Assembly: GCA_005798285.1 (NCBI GenBank)
Contig: SYKE01000088.1
Location: 1-32,428 of the forward strand
From: Actinomycetota bacterium
Lineage (GTDB): Bacteria > Armatimonadota > SYMT01
DNA: 32,428 nt
Direction of reading: 5' to 3'
A model generated the notes under the pieces. That model did no database searches and was not told the origin of the DNA. It saw nothing but the letters and a program-made list of their open reading frames with translations. A program made the translations under genes and the position numbers. Positions 9,321-17,969 of this stretch are shown piece by piece. Every line of letters begins with the position of its first letter. Positions within the stretch are counted from its first letter, which is position 1.

Positions 9321-9532
9321 CCCATTCGGTAGTCGTTCAACCCGGTTGGCGACTCAACGGCAGAGTTTGAACGACCTCTGACGCAACCCAATCGCAATCA
9401 CCTAGAATGAGTTTGTGGGTGATTGCGCGAGATCCCTACCCTTCTCCCACAAACATCAAGGCGCAGGCCGATCAGAATTACGGGGGGCGGCGGGGAAAAG
9501 CGCGAGAGCCGTGCGGCGGGAGAATGCAAGGG

Positions 9533-9565
9533 CTGCCGGACTACCGCAAGGCGGGCGTCCGGCAG
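9533..9565 (-). terminator. Hairpin just downstream of the FAD-dependent oxidoreductase gene
   Basis: ctgccggac/gtccggcag perfect 9-bp arms 11 bp past the stop; no U-tract. Confidence 0.4.
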
Positions 9566-9575
9566 CGCGCGGGGA

Positions 9576-10811
9576 TCACGCTTCGGCAGCAGCCATCTCG
9601 GCGCGCATCGCATCCATGAGCGGGAACACATCGCCGACCCCTTCTTTCCAGAGGGCCCCGATCAGCAGATCGGTGAGGTGGCCCTTGTAATCGGGGTGCT
9701 TCTTGACGAAGGCTCCGAAGCTGAAGCCATCGTAGTACTCGCACACGAGACGGCGCATGCGATCCATGCCTTCGCGGAACGACGGTCCCCAATGGCCCAG
9801 CGCTTCACCCGAGAGATTGCCCGAGCTGAGGGCATCGCCGACCGCGTCCGCAGCGAGCTCCCCACTCTTCAGCGCCAACAGCACGCCGGATGAGTAGAGT
9901 GGATCGAGAAAGCCGTGAGCGTCGCCCACGAGCACCCAGCCGTTGCCGGCCCACTGCTTGGCCTTGTAGCTGTAGTCTTTGGTGGCGTAGAACTTGTCGC
10001 AGCGGGCGCCGAACGCGACTCGCCGTTTCACCTCGGCGCAGTTCTCCACCTCTTCGTTGTAGATCTCTTCGTGCTCCCGGTTTCCCGCGAAGAGCTCATC
10101 GAATGCCCGAACGATCCCGACGCTCACGATATCGTTGTGGAGCGGAATGTACCAGAACCAGCCCTTCTTGCCTGGCGTCTGGATGACCATGGTCGCCCCT
10201 GCATCGCGACCCGGGTCGCGGAAGGCGCCCTTCCAATAGGTCCAGACGGCGCCTTTCTTCAGGTCCGGGTCTTTGTCCATGATCTTGAGGCGGCTCCCGA
10301 TCAACGTGCTTTGCCCCGACGCGTCGACGACGACCCTGGAGTGAACATCCTCCTCGCGCCCATCCTCATGCTGGATTCTGACACCGCACGCGCGATCGCC
10401 GTCCCAGATCACTTCCCGAACGCGAACGCCTTGCTCAACCTGAACCCCATGCTCGGCGGCGTTGTTCAGCATCAACTCGTCGAATTCACTCCTGAGCACC
10501 TGCCAGGTTTGAGAGCACTCGTGGGGGTTATGGTCGGTGAAGTAGAAGGGCTCCGACACTCTTCCACTCTGGCTGACGAACTGGACCGAGCACTTGACGA
10601 CGAAGGCGCTCTTCTTCATCTTCTCGAGCATGTTCAGTCGCTTGAGAGTCCAGTAGGTCTCCGGAATCAGCGATTCCCCGATATGGAAACGGGGAAAACG
10701 GTCTCGCTCGAACAGCCGTACGCGGTGACCCTTTTGGGCGATCAGTGTGGAACACGTGGCCCCGGCGGGCCCTCCCCCGATAACTACTACATCCGTGGCG
10801 GTCGTCGACAT
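9576..10811 (-). CDS. FAD-dependent oxidoreductase, flavin-dependent halogenase-like
   Basis: N-terminal GGGPAG Rossmann motif, 'FPRFHIGESLIP', WFWYIP (WxWxIP), 'GDAHGFLDPLYSSGV'; start chosen at MSTTATDVVVIGGG. Confidence 0.85.
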   Translation of the reverse strand: MSTTATDVVVIGGGPAGATCSTLIAQKGHRVRLFERDRFPRFHIGESLIPETYWTLKRLNMLEKMKKSAFVVKCSVQFVSQSGRVSEPFYFTDHNPHECSQTWQVLRSEFDELMLNNAAEHGVQVEQGVRVREVIWDGDRACGVRIQHEDGREEDVHSRVVVDASGQSTLIGSRLKIMDKDPDLKKGAVWTYWKGAFRDPGRDAGATMVIQTPGKKGWFWYIPLHNDIVSVGIVRAFDELFAGNREHEEIYNEEVENCAEVKRRVAFGARCDKFYATKDYSYKAKQWAGNGWVLVGDAHGFLDPLYSSGVLLALKSGELAADAVGDALSSGNLSGEALGHWGPSFREGMDRMRRLVCEYYDGFSFGAFVKKHPDYKGHLTDLLIGALWKEGVGDVFPLMDAMRAEMAAAEA

Positions 10812-11016
10812 TCGGCTCTCCCCGAACGGCCGAGAATCTGGCCCGGGCCGGTCGGACTCCAATGGAACGGGGCGACACCCGTTCGGACGCCGGCTTCCTG
10901 GAAAGCGACCTCCAAACCGGGATGGCCCCATTAACCTGTATCACGTTGCAACAGCCACGCTCCGCCGCACGCCAAAAGGCATCTCCCGGTGTGCGGCGGC
11001 ATCTTATCGTCCGAAG

Positions 11017-12006
11017 CTAGCGCGAGTTCCCTCCGCCGGCGCCGGGCGCAGGAGGCGCCGACGGCCTTGCGGCTCGCACTTCCTCGGGCATCCATCCGTT
11101 CGCGGGGTAATCCAAACCGTAGGCGTCGGCCATCCGGTTGAAGAACGCAAACAGCGATGTGATGAACGAGGCCTCGAAGATCTGCTCGTCGGTCCAACCT
11201 GTCTTGCGCATGGCCTGCGTGTGCGCATCTCGCACATTAGAGGGCTCAAGCGTCAAGACCTTCACGAACTCCAGCAGAACGCGCTCCTTCTCGGGCACCG
11301 CAGCTTTGTCGGCCGTGCCTCGAGCGATGGCGTCCACATCCTTTTCGTTCTCTCCCTGCAACTGCAGGAAGCGCGCGTGGCTGCCCACTCAGTATTTACA
11401 CTTGTTCAGCGCCGAAACGTACGTGGCGATCATCTCCTTCGTCCGGCGATCCAGGAAGCCATCCGAGAAGTGAGCTTTGCGGGAGAGATCGTTGATGTAA
11501 GCAAGATACTGGGGCTGGAGACTCATGGTTCGCAGGATCCCACCGGCGACTCGGCGCCCGAGCAGCTTCTCGACCTCCGCCATCCGGGGATCGTCATCGG
11601 CGGCCCAGTCGATTCGCATCACGCCGAGCGCCTGGTTGACGCCGGTCCGCAGTGCGGCGGGATCGGAACTTCGAACGACCAGTTTTCCGCGACGATCGAA
11701 TACCAGACCCGTCGGAGTCTCCTGGATTTCATACTGCTTCGGCAGGGCCTCGCTGCCCGACTTGACCGCGATCCAGCGAAGGCCGACTCGTCCCGCCAGT
11801 TCCTTCTGGTACTGGTCGGCCAACGATCTCTCCATGGCGCTTTCGGGCCGGTAGAAGAGGAAGAGCGTCGGCTTCTCGGACTCCAGACGGGAGCTGAGGC
11901 TCGTGGGCCGATCGGCCGAGAGTTTCACGGGCATCCCGTTGGAAGCGGGTGCGGCGGGCGATCCCGCCGCGAGGGATGCCGCAAGTAAGAGGGCGCCGAG
12001 TGCCAT
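11017..12006 (-). CDS. Candidate selenoprotein: thioredoxin-like N-terminus fused to AhpD/carboxymuconolactone decarboxylase-like domain, in-frame TGA (11389-11391) read as Sec; 329 aa if read through
   Basis: Contiguous same-frame ORFs flank one TGA: '...DRRTKEMIATYVSALNKCKY[TGA]VGSHARFLQLQGENEKDVDAIARG...'; TGA sits at the second Cys of CxxCxxxH; signal-peptide-like start at 12006 preceded by GGGAGG; downstream hairpin 11352-11371. Confidence 0.8.
11352..11371 (-). promoter_or_regulatory. Candidate bacterial SECIS element apical stem-loop
   Basis: Minus-strand RNA CUUCCUGC-AGUU-GCAGGGAG: 8-bp stem (one U-G), 4-nt loop starting 26 nt after UGA with G as second loop base. Confidence 0.6.
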
Positions 12007-12008
12007 GC

Positions 12009-12857
12009 CTAGTCCTCCCGGAACCACGCCTGGGCGTTGGGGGCCAGGGACCGCCGATAGGCCACCCCGATGAGGCTTCGGTCGTTCCAGGATGCCGGAC
12101 CCTTGAACCACTTCGCATGCCCATCTACCATCAGGTAAACGGCGCCCTGAGCGTGTTTGTAACGGGCTGCACAGTAGACCGCAGCGCTTCCCATGATTGG
12201 AGGCACGCCGACCACACCCTGCTCGTTCCCTGTGCAACCACTGCTCACGTCGTCGCCGGCCAACGCCGGACGGGTGCCCAACCCGTGCGTGACCAGAACA
12301 ACCGAAGCGGGCGCCGAGATGCTGGGGAGTCCCTTAGGGGGCTGCCCGCCGGGAAACCAGGGGCTGTTGGGAAGAAGCGCTCGGTTGGCCATTGGCATGA
12401 TCCAGCCATTGCCCGAGTAGCTCATCGCTCGAGTCACGTTTGCCGCGGGGAACACCGGGACGGGCGGGGCGCCGGCGCGGACCGGAATCTCATTGCTGTC
12501 GAAGTTTGGGCAGATGTAGAACGTCCTTTGGGGTGATCCGGCATATCCGAAGCCCGCTGCTCCCACCTTGACGTACGGTTCTGTCAGATCGTAGTACGTG
12601 TTGGTTACCGCTCCGAGGTTCGACGCCGCCCACGGGAAAGTCTCGTCGAAGTCCTGGGCATACATTGAGAGTGCGACGCCGATCTGCTTGAGGTTTGAAG
12701 TGCAAGCCGTCTTCCGAGCAGCGTCTCGCGCCTGAGCGAAGACAGGAAATAGAATCGCTGCAAGAATAGCTATGACAGCGATAACTACCAACAATTCAAT
12801 GAGGGTAAAGCCGCGTCCTCGGCGGCTCTGGCTGAACGCGGGGTTTGATGTCCGCAT
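12009..12857 (-). CDS. Type IV prepilin-like protein (DUF1559 / H-x9-DG type)
   Basis: [47 protein letters not shown]-terminal H-x9-DG ([12 protein letters not shown]). Confidence 0.92.
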
Positions 12858-13059
12858 CGGTGGATCCCTTCGTAGGTTTGTGCTGAAACGGGAGCGCCGT
12901 GGGTTGGTTCGCACCGATGCGGCCAAGCCACGGAACTGTTCAGCTTCAACTACGACCGAGAGTTGTGCTAGAGTTCCTCGGTGGACGAAAATTTTTCGCC
13001 ACAATCATTTCAACCGGCCGACTCGAACCGCACCTCGCGCCTTGCAACTTCAACGACAA

Positions 13060-13134: not shown

Positions 13135-14484
13135 CTAGATCCCGACGAGGCGGGTGTCGGCGTCCCCGAAGCGAGGCAGTTCAACCCCCATTCGATCCAT
13201 GATCGAGAGATAGAGGCTGCAGAGCTTGCGGTTCTCGTCGCCCTTGTCTCGGAAGTTGAGGACCCGTCCCGTTGCGAGTGAGCCGCCGAGCCCGCCGACG
13301 GTGAGGACCGGCAGGTGGGTGTTGTCGTGCTTGGAGCCGGACCACATGTTCGAGAGCCACAGTAGGCAGGAGTTGTCGAGCACGCTGCCTTCGCCTTCCG
13401 GCATAGCGGCGAGTTTGCCGGCGAGATACGCGAGCTGGCTGACGTAGAACCGGGCCACTCGCTCGTAGGCATCGCCCGTGTCGTAGTGCGATGCGGGATG
13501 GTGCGCGTCGCGAACGTCCAGGAACGGGTAGAAGAGCCCAGAGAGGTCTCTGCACATGAGCATGGTCGCGATGCGCGTCTTGTCCGTTTGGATCGCCAGC
13601 GCCACGATATCGCACATGAGCCGCATGTGTTCGCGGATATCCTCGGGCAGACCGTTGTCAGGTCGTTTCATGGCGACCATCGGCTTGCCGCGATCCGCTG
13701 CTCGCGTAGCGGCCTTGTCCATGTCGGTGCGGAGCTTCTGAGCCCGCTGCTCCACCTCGCGTACACTGGTGAGGTACTCATCCAGCTTGGCGCGGTCTCC
13801 GGCGCTGATCCTCTTGCGCAGCCCTGTCGCCTCGTCTCGCACCCGATCCAGGATGCTCTGGTTTCGCCGGCTGCCGTTGTTTTCGAAAAGGCTGTCGAAG
13901 GCGAGAGACGGGTAAACCTCGGTCGGGACCGGCGAGTCTGACGACTGCCACGAAATGTGCGAGCTGTAGGCCATCGAGAAGTTGCTCTCGTGATAGCCCG
14001 TGAGCGGCTGTTCGCAGGCCAAAACGAGACTCGGCTGCACTGTCTCCTGGCCGATTCGCGACGCCAGTACCTGGTCGATGCTGATCCCGCCCTGCAGCAC
14101 CGCGCCCCTCTGGAGGGGCATGCCCGAAAGAATGTTCCCAGTCATGCCCGGGTGGATCCCCACACCGGTAGACGGCTTGTTGAAGAGTCCGCCAATCACG
14201 TTCAGCTTCGTCTTGAACGGCTCCAGCGGGGAGAGGCTCTTGCTGAGCTCCATCCCGGCGCCTTCACCTTTGGCCGACCACTGGTCCGGATTGATGCCGT
14301 TGCCCATGAACTGGACAACAAAACGCTGTGGGAATGCCGACTTGCCTTTGGCATCGGGCTCGGCTCCCCAAACGGGAACCGATTCCAGCCATGGCAACGC
14401 CATTGCGACTCCGGCTCCCCTGAGGAACAGCCGGCGGGATACAGGTTGGACCGGGCGGTCGGTGTTCATTTCTCTGCTCGACAT
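13135..14484 (-). CDS. DUF1552 family secreted protein
   Basis: Tat-like 'SRRLFLRGAGVAMALPWLESV', 'FVVQFMGNGINPDQW', 'SKSLSPLEPFKTKLNVIGGLFN', 'LLWLSNMWSGSKHDNTHLPVLTVGG'. Confidence 0.88.
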   Translation of the reverse strand: MSSREMNTDRPVQPVSRRLFLRGAGVAMALPWLESVPVWGAEPDAKGKSAFPQRFVVQFMGNGINPDQWSAKGEGAGMELSKSLSPLEPFKTKLNVIGGLFNKPSTGVGIHPGMTGNILSGMPLQRGAVLQGGISIDQVLASRIGQETVQPSLVLACEQPLTGYHESNFSMAYSSHISWQSSDSPVPTEVYPSLAFDSLFENNGSRRNQSILDRVRDEATGLRKRISAGDRAKLDEYLTSVREVEQRAQKLRTDMDKAATRAADRGKPMVAMKRPDNGLPEDIREHMRLMCDIVALAIQTDKTRIATMLMCRDLSGLFYPFLDVRDAHHPASHYDTGDAYERVARFYVSQLAYLAGKLAAMPEGEGSVLDNSCLLWLSNMWSGSKHDNTHLPVLTVGGLGGSLATGRVLNFRDKGDENRKLCSLYLSIMDRMGVELPRFGDADTRLVGI

Positions 14485-14489
14485 GGAGT

Positions 14490-17400
14490 TTAGTTCCTCG
14501 CGAAGGCGGTGGTTCCTCGCCGGTTTCGGAACTGCCGGCTCGTTACGATGGAGTCAATCAGGGTGCTAAAGCGGTATCCGCCGGCCGTGAGCTTTCGACG
14601 CATCTCGGCGAGCGTCGGGTCGTCGGACGGGATGAGGGTTCGGCCCACACCATAGGACAGCAGTTTCCGGCAAAGGTTGTCCAGAAAATCGCTCTCCCGA
14701 CGTTCCTTTACAAACTGGCGGAGCCCGACCAGCCCATCTCGATCAGCGCCCCCGGGAAAGGGCGCCCGGGTATCGACCGGCTTTCCACCGAGGTCTCGTG
14801 CACGGAGCTCCCCGATTGGGCCGTAGTTCTCGAACACCAATCCGAAGGAGTCGAACCGGGCGTGACAACCAGAGCAAGCAGGGTTTTCCCGGTGCTGAGC
14901 CAGCACCTGTCGCAGGGTCTGATCTCCCAGCTTGCGTTCGTCTTTGGGGAGTTCGGGAACCACCGCGGGTGGCGCGGGGATGTGTTCGCCGAGCACACGC
15001 TTCACAACCCAGTATCCGCGCTTGACGGGACTGGTTCGCAGGCCGGGGGAGTTCTTGGTGAGGAAGACCGCCATCGGGAGCAGGCCGCCACGGGAGAAGC
15101 GGGAGGCGTTGTCCACGCGAACCCAACCGGATGAGGGGACTTCCGCCGCATCCATCCCGTAGTGTCGGGCCAGCGGCGCGTTTACAAAGGTGTAGCTGCC
15201 GTACAGCATGTCGAGCACCGAGCGGTTTCGTTGAAACGTGTCCAGCAGAAAGTGCAACGGCTCCTCAAACATGGACTGGCGAAGTTCATCGGTAAAACTC
15301 GGAAAACGCTCGCGGTCCACGGCCTGATGCTCTTCAAAACGGCGGAAGTCGAGCCAGTTCCCGCCGAACTCCAGGGCAAGGGCTCGCACCTTTGGGTTCT
15401 GAAGCATTCGCCGGGCTTGGGCCGCCAGAACCTCGGGCTTCTTCAAATCGCCCGCCGCCGCCCGCGCCAGGAGTTCTTCATCGGGCATGCTCGACCAGAG
15501 GAAGTAGCTCAAGCGGCTCGCGAGCGCGTAGTCGGAAATGGGCCGCAGCCTGGGTGCGCTCTGCGGTTCGGCCGTCGTGGCCAACCGGAGCGCCGCATCC
15601 GGCTGAAATGTCCCCGCATCCGCTTCCAGGTCAACCCGGTAGAGGAAGTTCGGCGACATCAAAACGCTGACGACGCAGTCGCGCATCGCGTCCTCATGCG
15701 TCAGCCCATCCTTCTGGCGGAGGTTGCGGTAGAAGGTGCTGAGGTCGGCACGCTCCGTCGGGTTGAGGGGCCTGCGGAATGCGCGACGAGCAAAGTCGAG
15801 CAGACTGGCGAGATGGGACGGCTCCGCCGCCTTCCGCGCCTTCTCAATGGCTCGAAGATTGTCGTTCGTGAATTCGAAGTACTCCTCGATCGCCTCGATG
15901 GCGGTCGGGTTCCCACCACTCGAACTGAGACTCTGTCGGGCCTTGCTGAGGTAGACCTCCCCCAAGCGAGCCAACTTCACCTCCGAGGTGGCGTCTTTGT
16001 CCTCCGATCGGGCGAAATCGAACTCCTGGCCCTTGATGGTCCCGGACTCGGCGCGCTCGTAGAAGATGAACTCCAGGTGCATTCTCTCAGGCACGAACGC
16101 CACAAAGTCGAACTCCAGCCACAAGCGATCCAGTTGCTTACGTCCGGCGTCATCCAGCACCAACTCCATGAGCGGGACATCGTCGCGGAAGTAACCCATC
16201 GCGTTGTGCAGTCCGGCACTCAGAAGACGGCCACGGTCGTTGGGGTCATCGAGGAACATCCTGCCCCGTTCGGAGATGAAGAACGCGTCGGGAAACACAC
16301 TGCAGAAGCGCTTGAACGCCTCCAGGTAAGGTGTTCGTTCCTGCTCATCCCTGGGAACAAAGAGGTCCGGATCGGGCGGGTCGATCACCACGCGCGGCTG
16401 CTGGTTGGTGGCGCCGCCGTTCCCACGGGTGGGGGTGATGGTTCGTGGCTTGACCTCTCCGCCGATCTGCAAAGCATTGGGGTTGAGCTCCCTTCGGTGG
16501 GAAGCGTACTGCCGATTCTTCCACATCACGAAGCACTGGCCGCCCGGCGAGAACCCGCGCAGGCTTAGATTGTCGAACTTCCACGCCACCTTCTTTCGAA
16601 GCGTGACCACGTAGTTGCGCATCGCCACAATCTCGGCCTGAGGCGCCGATGCTCCGGGGGCGGATGGAGCCGGCAAAGCGTTCCACATCGACTGAAGTCG
16701 GGCAATCGGCCCCACTTTCTCGTTCGGCGCATTCAGCGTCGCCCAGATCGTCTCCAGATACTTCGAGCTTACGTTGGACTGGGCCGCAGTTTGAGCGAGC
16801 GTGGCGTTGGACTGATTGAGGGCGGCCCGATGCCGGAAGCGCCAGGCTGCCGTGAAGTAGTCCGCCAGATCGGTCGGCTGCTTTTTGTAGAAGTCCACGA
16901 TGCGGAGGATCGAATACTTGTCGCGGTCCGTCTCCACCAGTACGGGATGCGGAGCGAAGTCGAACCCGGACGGCTTCAGAACGAGGTGGTCCGCCACGGT
17001 TCGTGCGGCCTGAAGATACTTCTTCATCAGGGCCGGCGAGACGGTGAGCGATTCCCCCGTGTTGTCGAAACCCTCCTGGTTGGCGGGATCGACGGGGAAC
17101 TCGCGGGTGGGCCTGAGATCGTGGCCGGTGAGATCGCGAATCGTGTAGTCGTACTCCGAGTTGCTCAATCGACGGGCAAGCACGGGACCGGGATCGCCGG
17201 CGGAACGCTCGGCGATCTCTCGGCGCATGCCTTTGATCCAACTCACTGCCGCGAGCTTTTGGGCCGCGGACGGCTGACGTGAGCCTTTTGGAGGCATCTC
17301 TCCGGCTTCGAGCTTTTGCAACACCAGAGTCCAGTGGGCGTAGTCGCGCACCACGGAGGCCATTGTGCTGTAACCGCTTAGGTCCAGCGAGGCCTTGGGC

Positions 17401-17615
17401 TGGTTCTTCCCATGGCAGCCGACGCAGTAGGATCTCAGAAACGGGAGCACGCTGGCGGTGTAGCTCTTCTCCAATTGCCCCCGCGTGCCGGCCGCCGCCG
17501 CCCGAGTTCCACCTGCGCTCGATGCGCTGCTGGAGAGCACCAGCGCTGCCATGAATCCGGCTGCGCCGGTGAACCACCCCAGCGCTCGGCGCTCACGATA
17601 TCGTCCGGACCACAT
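14490..17615 (-). CDS. PSCyt-type cytochrome-like protein (DUF1587/1592/1588/1585 multidomain)
   Basis: CVGCHGKNQPKASLDLSGY heme motif, 'RRLSNSEYDYTIRDLTGHDL', 'SYFLWSSMPDEELLARAAAGDL', CSGCHARFDSFGLVFENYGPIGELR; start chosen at MWSGRYRERR. Confidence 0.9.
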   Translation of the reverse strand: MWSGRYRERRALGWFTGAAGFMAALVLSSSASSAGGTRAAAAGTRGQLEKSYTASVLPFLRSYCVGCHGKNQPKASLDLSGYSTMASVVRDYAHWTLVLQKLEAGEMPPKGSRQPSAAQKLAAVSWIKGMRREIAERSAGDPGPVLARRLSNSEYDYTIRDLTGHDLRPTREFPVDPANQEGFDNTGESLTVSPALMKKYLQAARTVADHLVLKPSGFDFAPHPVLVETDRDKYSILRIVDFYKKQPTDLADYFTAAWRFRHRAALNQSNATLAQTAAQSNVSSKYLETIWATLNAPNEKVGPIARLQSMWNALPAPSAPGASAPQAEIVAMRNYVVTLRKKVAWKFDNLSLRGFSPGGQCFVMWKNRQYASHRRELNPNALQIGGEVKPRTITPTRGNGGATNQQPRVVIDPPDPDLFVPRDEQERTPYLEAFKRFCSVFPDAFFISERGRMFLDDPNDRGRLLSAGLHNAMGYFRDDVPLMELVLDDAGRKQLDRLWLEFDFVAFVPERMHLEFIFYERAESGTIKGQEFDFARSEDKDATSEVKLARLGEVYLSKARQSLSSSGGNPTAIEAIEEYFEFTNDNLRAIEKARKAAEPSHLASLLDFARRAFRRPLNPTERADLSTFYRNLRQKDGLTHEDAMRDCVVSVLMSPNFLYRVDLEADAGTFQPDAALRLATTAEPQSAPRLRPISDYALASRLSYFLWSSMPDEELLARAAAGDLKKPEVLAAQARRMLQNPKVRALALEFGGNWLDFRRFEEHQAVDRERFPSFTDELRQSMFEEPLHFLLDTFQRNRSVLDMLYGSYTFVNAPLARHYGMDAAEVPSSGWVRVDNASRFSRGGLLPMAVFLTKNSPGLRTSPVKRGYWVVKRVLGEHIPAPPAVVPELPKDERKLGDQTLRQVLAQHRENPACSGCHARFDSFGLVFENYGPIGELRARDLGGKPVDTRAPFPGGADRDGLVGLRQFVKERRESDFLDNLCRKLLSYGVGRTLIPSDDPTLAEMRRKLTAGGYRFSTLIDSIVTSRQFRNRRGTTAFARN

Positions 17616-17969
17616 CAACTGTTGCACTCCAACCGTCCCCGGGACAGACCAGCCCGACGGCAGCCTGAGATAAGGACGCCTACATTCTCTCATGAGTCGA
17701 ACGGGTCCCCCGTGAGTCCCGTGCCTCGGGGTTGCACCCGGAGCATGCGCCCCGACGACCGTCGGGAGACATACTCCTCTGGGGAGTTGATCCGACATTC
17801 GGGCTCGCCCCGTGTTTCAGGTACCTGACTTCCCCGGCGCCGAGAAGTCGGGTCTCGTTCACGTCTCGGAGCCCCCTGGGGAACGGTGGACTCCACGGGT
17901 TGGGAGAGTCCGAGTTCGCCAGGGGAAATAGCTCAGGCGCCTGCTGGTCTCTACCGGGACGAGCCCGTC

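Follow-up and report, generated by a model that had tools for sequence, protein, structure and literature searches.

Two open reading frames on the minus strand of the 32,428-nucleotide stretch of DNA analysed here (the window) follow each other in one frame with nothing but a TGA codon between them, and the locus raises the question whether this is a broken gene or a single selenoprotein in which the TGA encodes selenocysteine (Sec). A sequence-only reading had proposed a secreted Sec-containing enzyme of 329 residues with a thioredoxin-like and an AhpD-like domain, and the contiguous frame, its coordinates and its sequence all agree with that description. The frame runs from an ATG at 12006 to a TAG ending at 11017 and comprises 329 codons, with the TGA at 11391-11389 as the sole interruption. 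This span is indeed the right gene; the mechanical upper reading frame, which extends to 12237, runs into the preceding prepilin-like gene. Two same-frame reading frames parted by a TGA alone are poor evidence by themselves, and a mechanical scan of the GC-rich window for TGAs preceded by 150 or more open codons and followed by 100 or more returned 15 such cases. Among these, only the TGA at 11391 hits a known catalytic Cys. It is raised far above chance by the CMD domain that reads across it, by the TIGR01926 match, by its conservation and by the selection downstream of it. Judged from these sequence data, the locus very probably encodes a single two-domain selenoprotein, which standard gene calling would split at the TGA or lose. 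The features are collected in Table 1.

Table 1. Features of the predicted selenoprotein locus, in window coordinates.
Feature	Position	Strand	Basis
Predicted selenoprotein gene, complete, 329 residues, TGA read as Sec at codon 206	11017..12006	-	frame, Pfam, TIGR01926, homologues, selection
In-frame TGA (putative Sec206) in place of the second Cys in the CxxC-type centre	11389..11391	-	eight further two-domain homologues with TGA; TGT in the tandem copy of G014; GGG in L018
SECIS-like hairpin, core CCUGC-AGUU-GCAGG at 11355-11368 (+21 to +34 after UGA), apical-loop G conserved	11352..11371	-	covariation, absent in Cys homologues
Predicted proton-relay residues E191, C203, Y205, U206, H210	11377..11436	-	spacing as in AhpD proteins
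AhpD/carboxymuconolactone-decarboxylase-like domain, residues ~136-301	11104..11601	-	Pfam, TIGR01926, Foldseek
Predicted thioredoxin-fold domain, residues ~27-131, no CxxC (FYRPESAME there), cis-Pro-type TPT kept	11614..11928	-	model, Foldseek, profile
Signal-peptide-like hydrophobic N-terminus, residues 1-21, weak n-region	11944..12006	-	composition, inferred
Upstream neighbour, DUF1559/prepilin-type protein, ends 2 nt before ATG	12009..13004	-	annotation of window

The Pfam CMD match spans the TGA (residues 165-244, E 9.4e-18), and the TIGR01926 model of AhpD-like, peroxidase-related proteins gives 89.3 bits, above its curated cut-off of 81.8. With the TGA read as U, the active-site stretch is C203-K-Y-U206-V-G-S-H210, and besides U206 the protein contains C203 as its only Cys. 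The TGA occupies exactly the place of the second AhpD Cys (CKY-U-VGSH). The proton relay of the M. tuberculosis AhpD consists of E118, C130, H132, C133 and H137, that of P. aeruginosa PA0269 (2O4D) of E36, C48, Y50, C51 and H55 (PMC3141380). The window protein has the spacing E-x11-C-x-Y-U-x3-H of PA0269, and the E/C/(H or Y)/C/H pattern is identically spaced in both reference proteins; it differs from them by Sec in place of the second Cys and by its extra N-terminal domain. In the AlphaFold2 model the AhpD domain is all-helical, and the AhpD-like matches found with Foldseek, including 3c1l and 6k40, reach E values of about 1e-8 to 1e-7.

Scanning one genome per species gave three relatives of full length: L016 with 66-69% identity and L017 with about 50%, both of which have TGA at the equivalent codon, and L018, from a different MAG and about 44% identical, which has GGG (Gly). 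When 292 genomes from the window's phylum were searched with a profile, the two-domain protein turned up as ten genes in eight genomes, L016 being the member from genome G001 and L017 that from G026. All ten genes carry TGA at the Sec codon except one TGT copy. Besides the window gene, there are hence eight TGA homologues in seven genomes and five families of the phylum (G001, G026, G022, G014, G027, G006 and, twice, G055). The TGT copy is a paralogue in G014 that stands in tandem with the TGA copy, and both Sec (TGA) and Cys (TGT) thus occur at this column. The two G014 copies lie at L031:2387-3298 and 1498-2574 (G014:C1 about 1467980-1469717), the Cys copy being without the hairpin described below. 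Between the window and L016, dN/dS is about 0.17 upstream of the TGA (dN 0.252, dS 1.52) and about 0.16 downstream of it (dN 0.185, dS 1.16). With the remaining copies, dN is likewise clearly smaller than dS upstream and downstream, and dS is often saturated. Because the ratios are alike on both sides, the downstream half appears to be translated in the same protein, and by this comparison of sequences both sides are one protein under one constraint.

These data bear on the explanation that an AhpD gene was simply broken by a nonsense codon, in a pseudogene or through an assembly error. The 15 long frames in the window that are parted by a TGA would fit such an accident, but the equivalent TGA recurs in eight separately assembled homologues, purifying selection is equal on either side of it, no further in-frame stop appears before the end of the domain, and the close homologues are free of random stops. 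The conserved TGA and the selection beyond it refute a broken gene, and we give this explanation a negligible probability.

Read-through alone is silent on the residue inserted, and a reassigned code or a suppressor tRNA could place another amino acid at the TGA. We consider this very improbable and reject code reassignment, since the paralogue has Cys at the column, the neighbouring genes read normally with table 11, a SECIS-like hairpin follows the TGA and the host has the full Sec machinery. In the host genome, which is 69% complete, we found a tRNA-Sec with anticodon UCA (64.8 bits against a cut-off of 47), selA (567 against 268 bits) and selB (366 against 242 bits). The host selD, recognised by eye from its sequence and not by a family search, has an in-frame TGA itself, at the expected place (KCGGUASK). 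With selC, selD and selA clustered on contig C20 and selD placed between tRNA-Sec and selA, all four of selA, selB, selC and selD are present; selD lies in L025 (G000:C20) at about 9436-10330 on the minus strand. An ARAGORN tmRNA call at the tRNA-Sec locus proved spurious, as it overlaps the tRNA-Sec and a neighbouring tRNA. Each of the other seven genomes in the phylum that carry the fusion likewise has selA and a tRNA-Sec above the cut-off (7/7).

The hallmark of bacterial SECIS elements is a hairpin directly 3' of the UGA with a G in a small apical loop (PMC1088965), and the window has such a hairpin in the published position and with the loop G. Most Sec copies carry CCUGC-RGUY-GCAGG at +21 to +34, related single-domain copies have CCUCC-GGUC-GGAGG and the G006 copy has CUUGC-AGUU-GCAAG, which are compensatory changes. 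Across 16 sequences, which as homologues are not independent, 77/80 pair cells (96.3%) hold standard pairs with both-sided changes in five cells, and the covariation score was matched by 0/500 shuffles and by none of the slid versions. The hairpin is not formed in 3/3 Cys copies examined, and the five-pair stem is not formed in one of the two G055 copies (L058). Codon-shuffle tests of single sequences gave a moderate result, often with p about 0.1-0.2 and with the stem arising in about 10-20% of the shuffled versions of a gene, because the amino-acid sequence by itself favours the stem. The Leu codon that provides the loop U is TTG in 8/8 copies reading QLQG (the Gly copy together with seven Sec copies, six of them two-domain and one single-domain), against a background TTG share of 11-12% among Leu codons. 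For the gene region, Rfam at permissive thresholds returned nothing beyond chance-level matches. Single-domain AhpD selenoproteins of the CFYU type (L039-L045, L049, L050, L054, L055 and others) have a differently placed hairpin, ACGCAGA-GUU-UCUGCGU, which lies some 10 nt beyond the UGA and shows a compensatory change in L043.

The proposal that the TGA encodes Sec in a 329-residue enzyme thus stands on the conserved TGA, the selection across it, the hairpin and the host machinery. Those checks suggested with the sequence-only reading that sequence data allow all turned out in its favour. In the mechanism we envisage, SelB would be directed by the downstream hairpin to bring Sec-tRNA(Sec) to the UGA, so that the ribosome would read through to 329 residues.

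The N-terminal part had been taken for a thioredoxin fold without CxxC, and an AlphaFold2 model, Foldseek and a weak profile match support this assignment. The model was made from a four-row alignment and has a mean pLDDT of 71 and a pTM of 0.45, so that the arrangement of the two domains in it is unreliable. The N-domain itself has a pLDDT of mostly 77-93 and is fairly confidently predicted as thioredoxin-like, with the order beta-alpha-beta-alpha-beta-beta-alpha (strands 47-52, 74-80, 99-103 and 109-113; helices 57-70, 87-91 and 116-127). Foldseek matches it to the thioredoxin 4knd (E 2.3e-4, TM 0.74 by target), and its profile matches thioredoxins weakly (E 0.0024). Pfam gave no significant match for the isolated domain, and a viral structure library returned weak generic thioredoxins only. 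Where thioredoxins have the WCGPC motif, 11/11 members lack a Cys and read FYRPxSTME or similar, and all of them keep the TP of the presumed cis-proline loop. As it has no Cys, the domain cannot cycle electrons like a thioredoxin; it would rather position the enzyme or bind a partner or substrate, and docking of either is probably its role.

Because the UGA comes after the entire N-domain, a regulated dual product may be considered, in which a stop at the UGA would release a free thioredoxin-fold protein and Sec supply would give the full enzyme. However, the UGA interrupts the AhpD domain midway, and a product ending there would include a truncated piece of it. Moreover, the N-domain was never found alone, outside the fusion, in the 292 genomes of the phylum (eight positive). 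A dual product is therefore very unlikely. The description of the enzyme as secreted would hold only in part. Most members have a signal-like start and are, by their sequence, probably exported, but the N-terminus of the window protein is hydrophobic without basic residues. As the Sec copies of family f14 (L017 and L031) have no signal-like segment, export would be variable.

The catalytic unit would be the C-terminal AhpD-like domain, in which C203 and Sec206, the latter at the position of AhpD Cys133, may act as a redox pair of the selenenylsulfide type, with E191, Y205 and H210 serving as proton relay. The enzyme is likely a (seleno)thiol peroxidase or an AhpD-type disulfide exchanger, and the reaction would accordingly be a (seleno)peroxidase reaction or an AhpD-type thiol/disulfide exchange. 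There is a substantial chance, somewhat short of even, that Sec is inserted and the enzyme is no peroxidase at all, acting instead as an AhpD-type disulfide adaptor, as an envelope thiol oxidoreductase or on another substrate, for example in a reductive dehalogenation. This contests the reaction and not the selenoprotein reading. AhpD serves as adaptor to AhpC (PMC3141380), most members look exported to where cytoplasmic AhpC partners would be absent, no peroxiredoxin occurs among the neighbours examined, and the Foldseek list includes Bmp8, an AhpD-like debrominase. Bmp8 is a more distant match there than the peroxidase-related structures 3c1l, 6k40 and 2prr, though, and a substrate-specific signature was not found. 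For the fused proteins as a whole we can offer a tentative and rather doubtful picture: they may form a distinct selenoenzyme subfamily in which a redox-dead thioredoxin fold was recruited for docking or substrate binding. The AhpD selenodomain may thereby have become a peroxidase or disulfide exchanger that is self-contained, acts mostly outside the cytoplasm and has no need of AhpC or a cytoplasmic thioredoxin.

Co-transcription with the upstream DUF1559/prepilin-type gene is possible. Genes of the DUF1552 and DUF1592/PSCyt types are found close to the fusion both in the window (13135-17798, minus strand) and in G014 (L057 10049-13500, minus strand), and none were seen at the other loci examined. 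Since they accompany the fusion at only these two of the loci examined, the operon context gives no firm function. Downstream, at 9576-10931 on the minus strand, the window contains an FAD-dependent halogenase/monooxygenase-like gene (Trp_halogenase, 2.1e-26).

The enzyme type is known. AhpD-like CxxU selenoproteins have been described since 2005, in the Sargasso Sea data (PMC1088965) and in the GOS study of 2008 (PMC2398784), and a 2026 review inventory contains several (PMC13188914). With those of the TIGR01926/COG2128 type the window protein shares the CMD/AhpD domain, Sec as second residue of the CxxC and a SECIS element directly downstream; it differs by the Cys-free thioredoxin-fold domain that precedes the AhpD domain. 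This architecture does not appear in the consulted passages of the inventory table (PMC13188914). An AhpD-type CxxU domain is likewise fused to a partner in the arsenite methyltransferase/AhpD domain selenoprotein NF041537, but there, according to the same review, the partner is a methyltransferase with a further Sec. The NCBIfam model NF041238 (AhpD_rel_CFYUT, (seleno)protein) has the AhpD-related CxxU domain and a similar protein length; the window protein scores 67.8 bits, below the cut-off of 175, and matches model positions 157-336 but not the N-terminal half. None of the NCBIfam selenoprotein models recognises the fusion above its cut-off. Sestrins (PA26) show a distant similarity in the AhpD-like domain (E 1e-4, under the Pfam cut-off); they are animal proteins without Sec and with a different partner domain. 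Our searches of open-licence papers turned up no account of a thioredoxin-AhpD selenoprotein fusion and no selenoprotein work for the window's phylum. The new part appears to be this fusion of a Cys-free thioredoxin-like domain to a Sec-AhpD domain, which extends the prokaryotic selenoproteome by one domain architecture, and the surprise is limited to it and to the Sec/Cys/Gly series around the gene.

In a maximum-likelihood tree of AhpD domains, to be read with caution as to root and long branches, a single branch separates the fused proteins from the rest (support 97/95, 98% of bootstrap trees), and they adjoin single-domain CPYU selenoproteins. The Cys and Gly copies are nested within the fused group, which points to one fusion in a Sec-containing ancestor. 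Most simply, this tree suggests that the fusion arose once and that Sec was lost at least twice. A Sec or Cys is not strictly required at the column, as L018 has Gly there. This Gly should abolish AhpD chemistry, and it reflects either an assembly problem or a Sec residue lost recently. The related copies, with Sec, Cys or Gly in one enzyme and the hairpin present or gone, are a compact natural experiment in which it becomes directly testable what advantage Sec brings to a single active site. The Gly (GGG) copy, at L018:4544, retains a complete SECIS-like hairpin including the TTG codon, and it comes from a genome (G292) with tRNA-Sec and selA, in which a further AhpD-like gene contains a TGA. 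In a sample of L018's phylum, 107/395 genomes have a match, most of them with a TGA somewhere inside, counted irrespective of its position, and L018's own genome is the only one with a full-length two-domain match. Single-domain AhpD-like genes with TGA at the equivalent position are widespread in the window's phylum. The host itself has a second AhpD-like selenoprotein of the CPYU type without the thioredoxin-fold domain (G000:C245:8381-8929, L059), which adjoins the fused group. Finally, the genome of L016 (G001) bears the submitter label Actinomycetota, yet it falls into the window's own family, whose phylum also includes L017, a record named Armatimonadetes.
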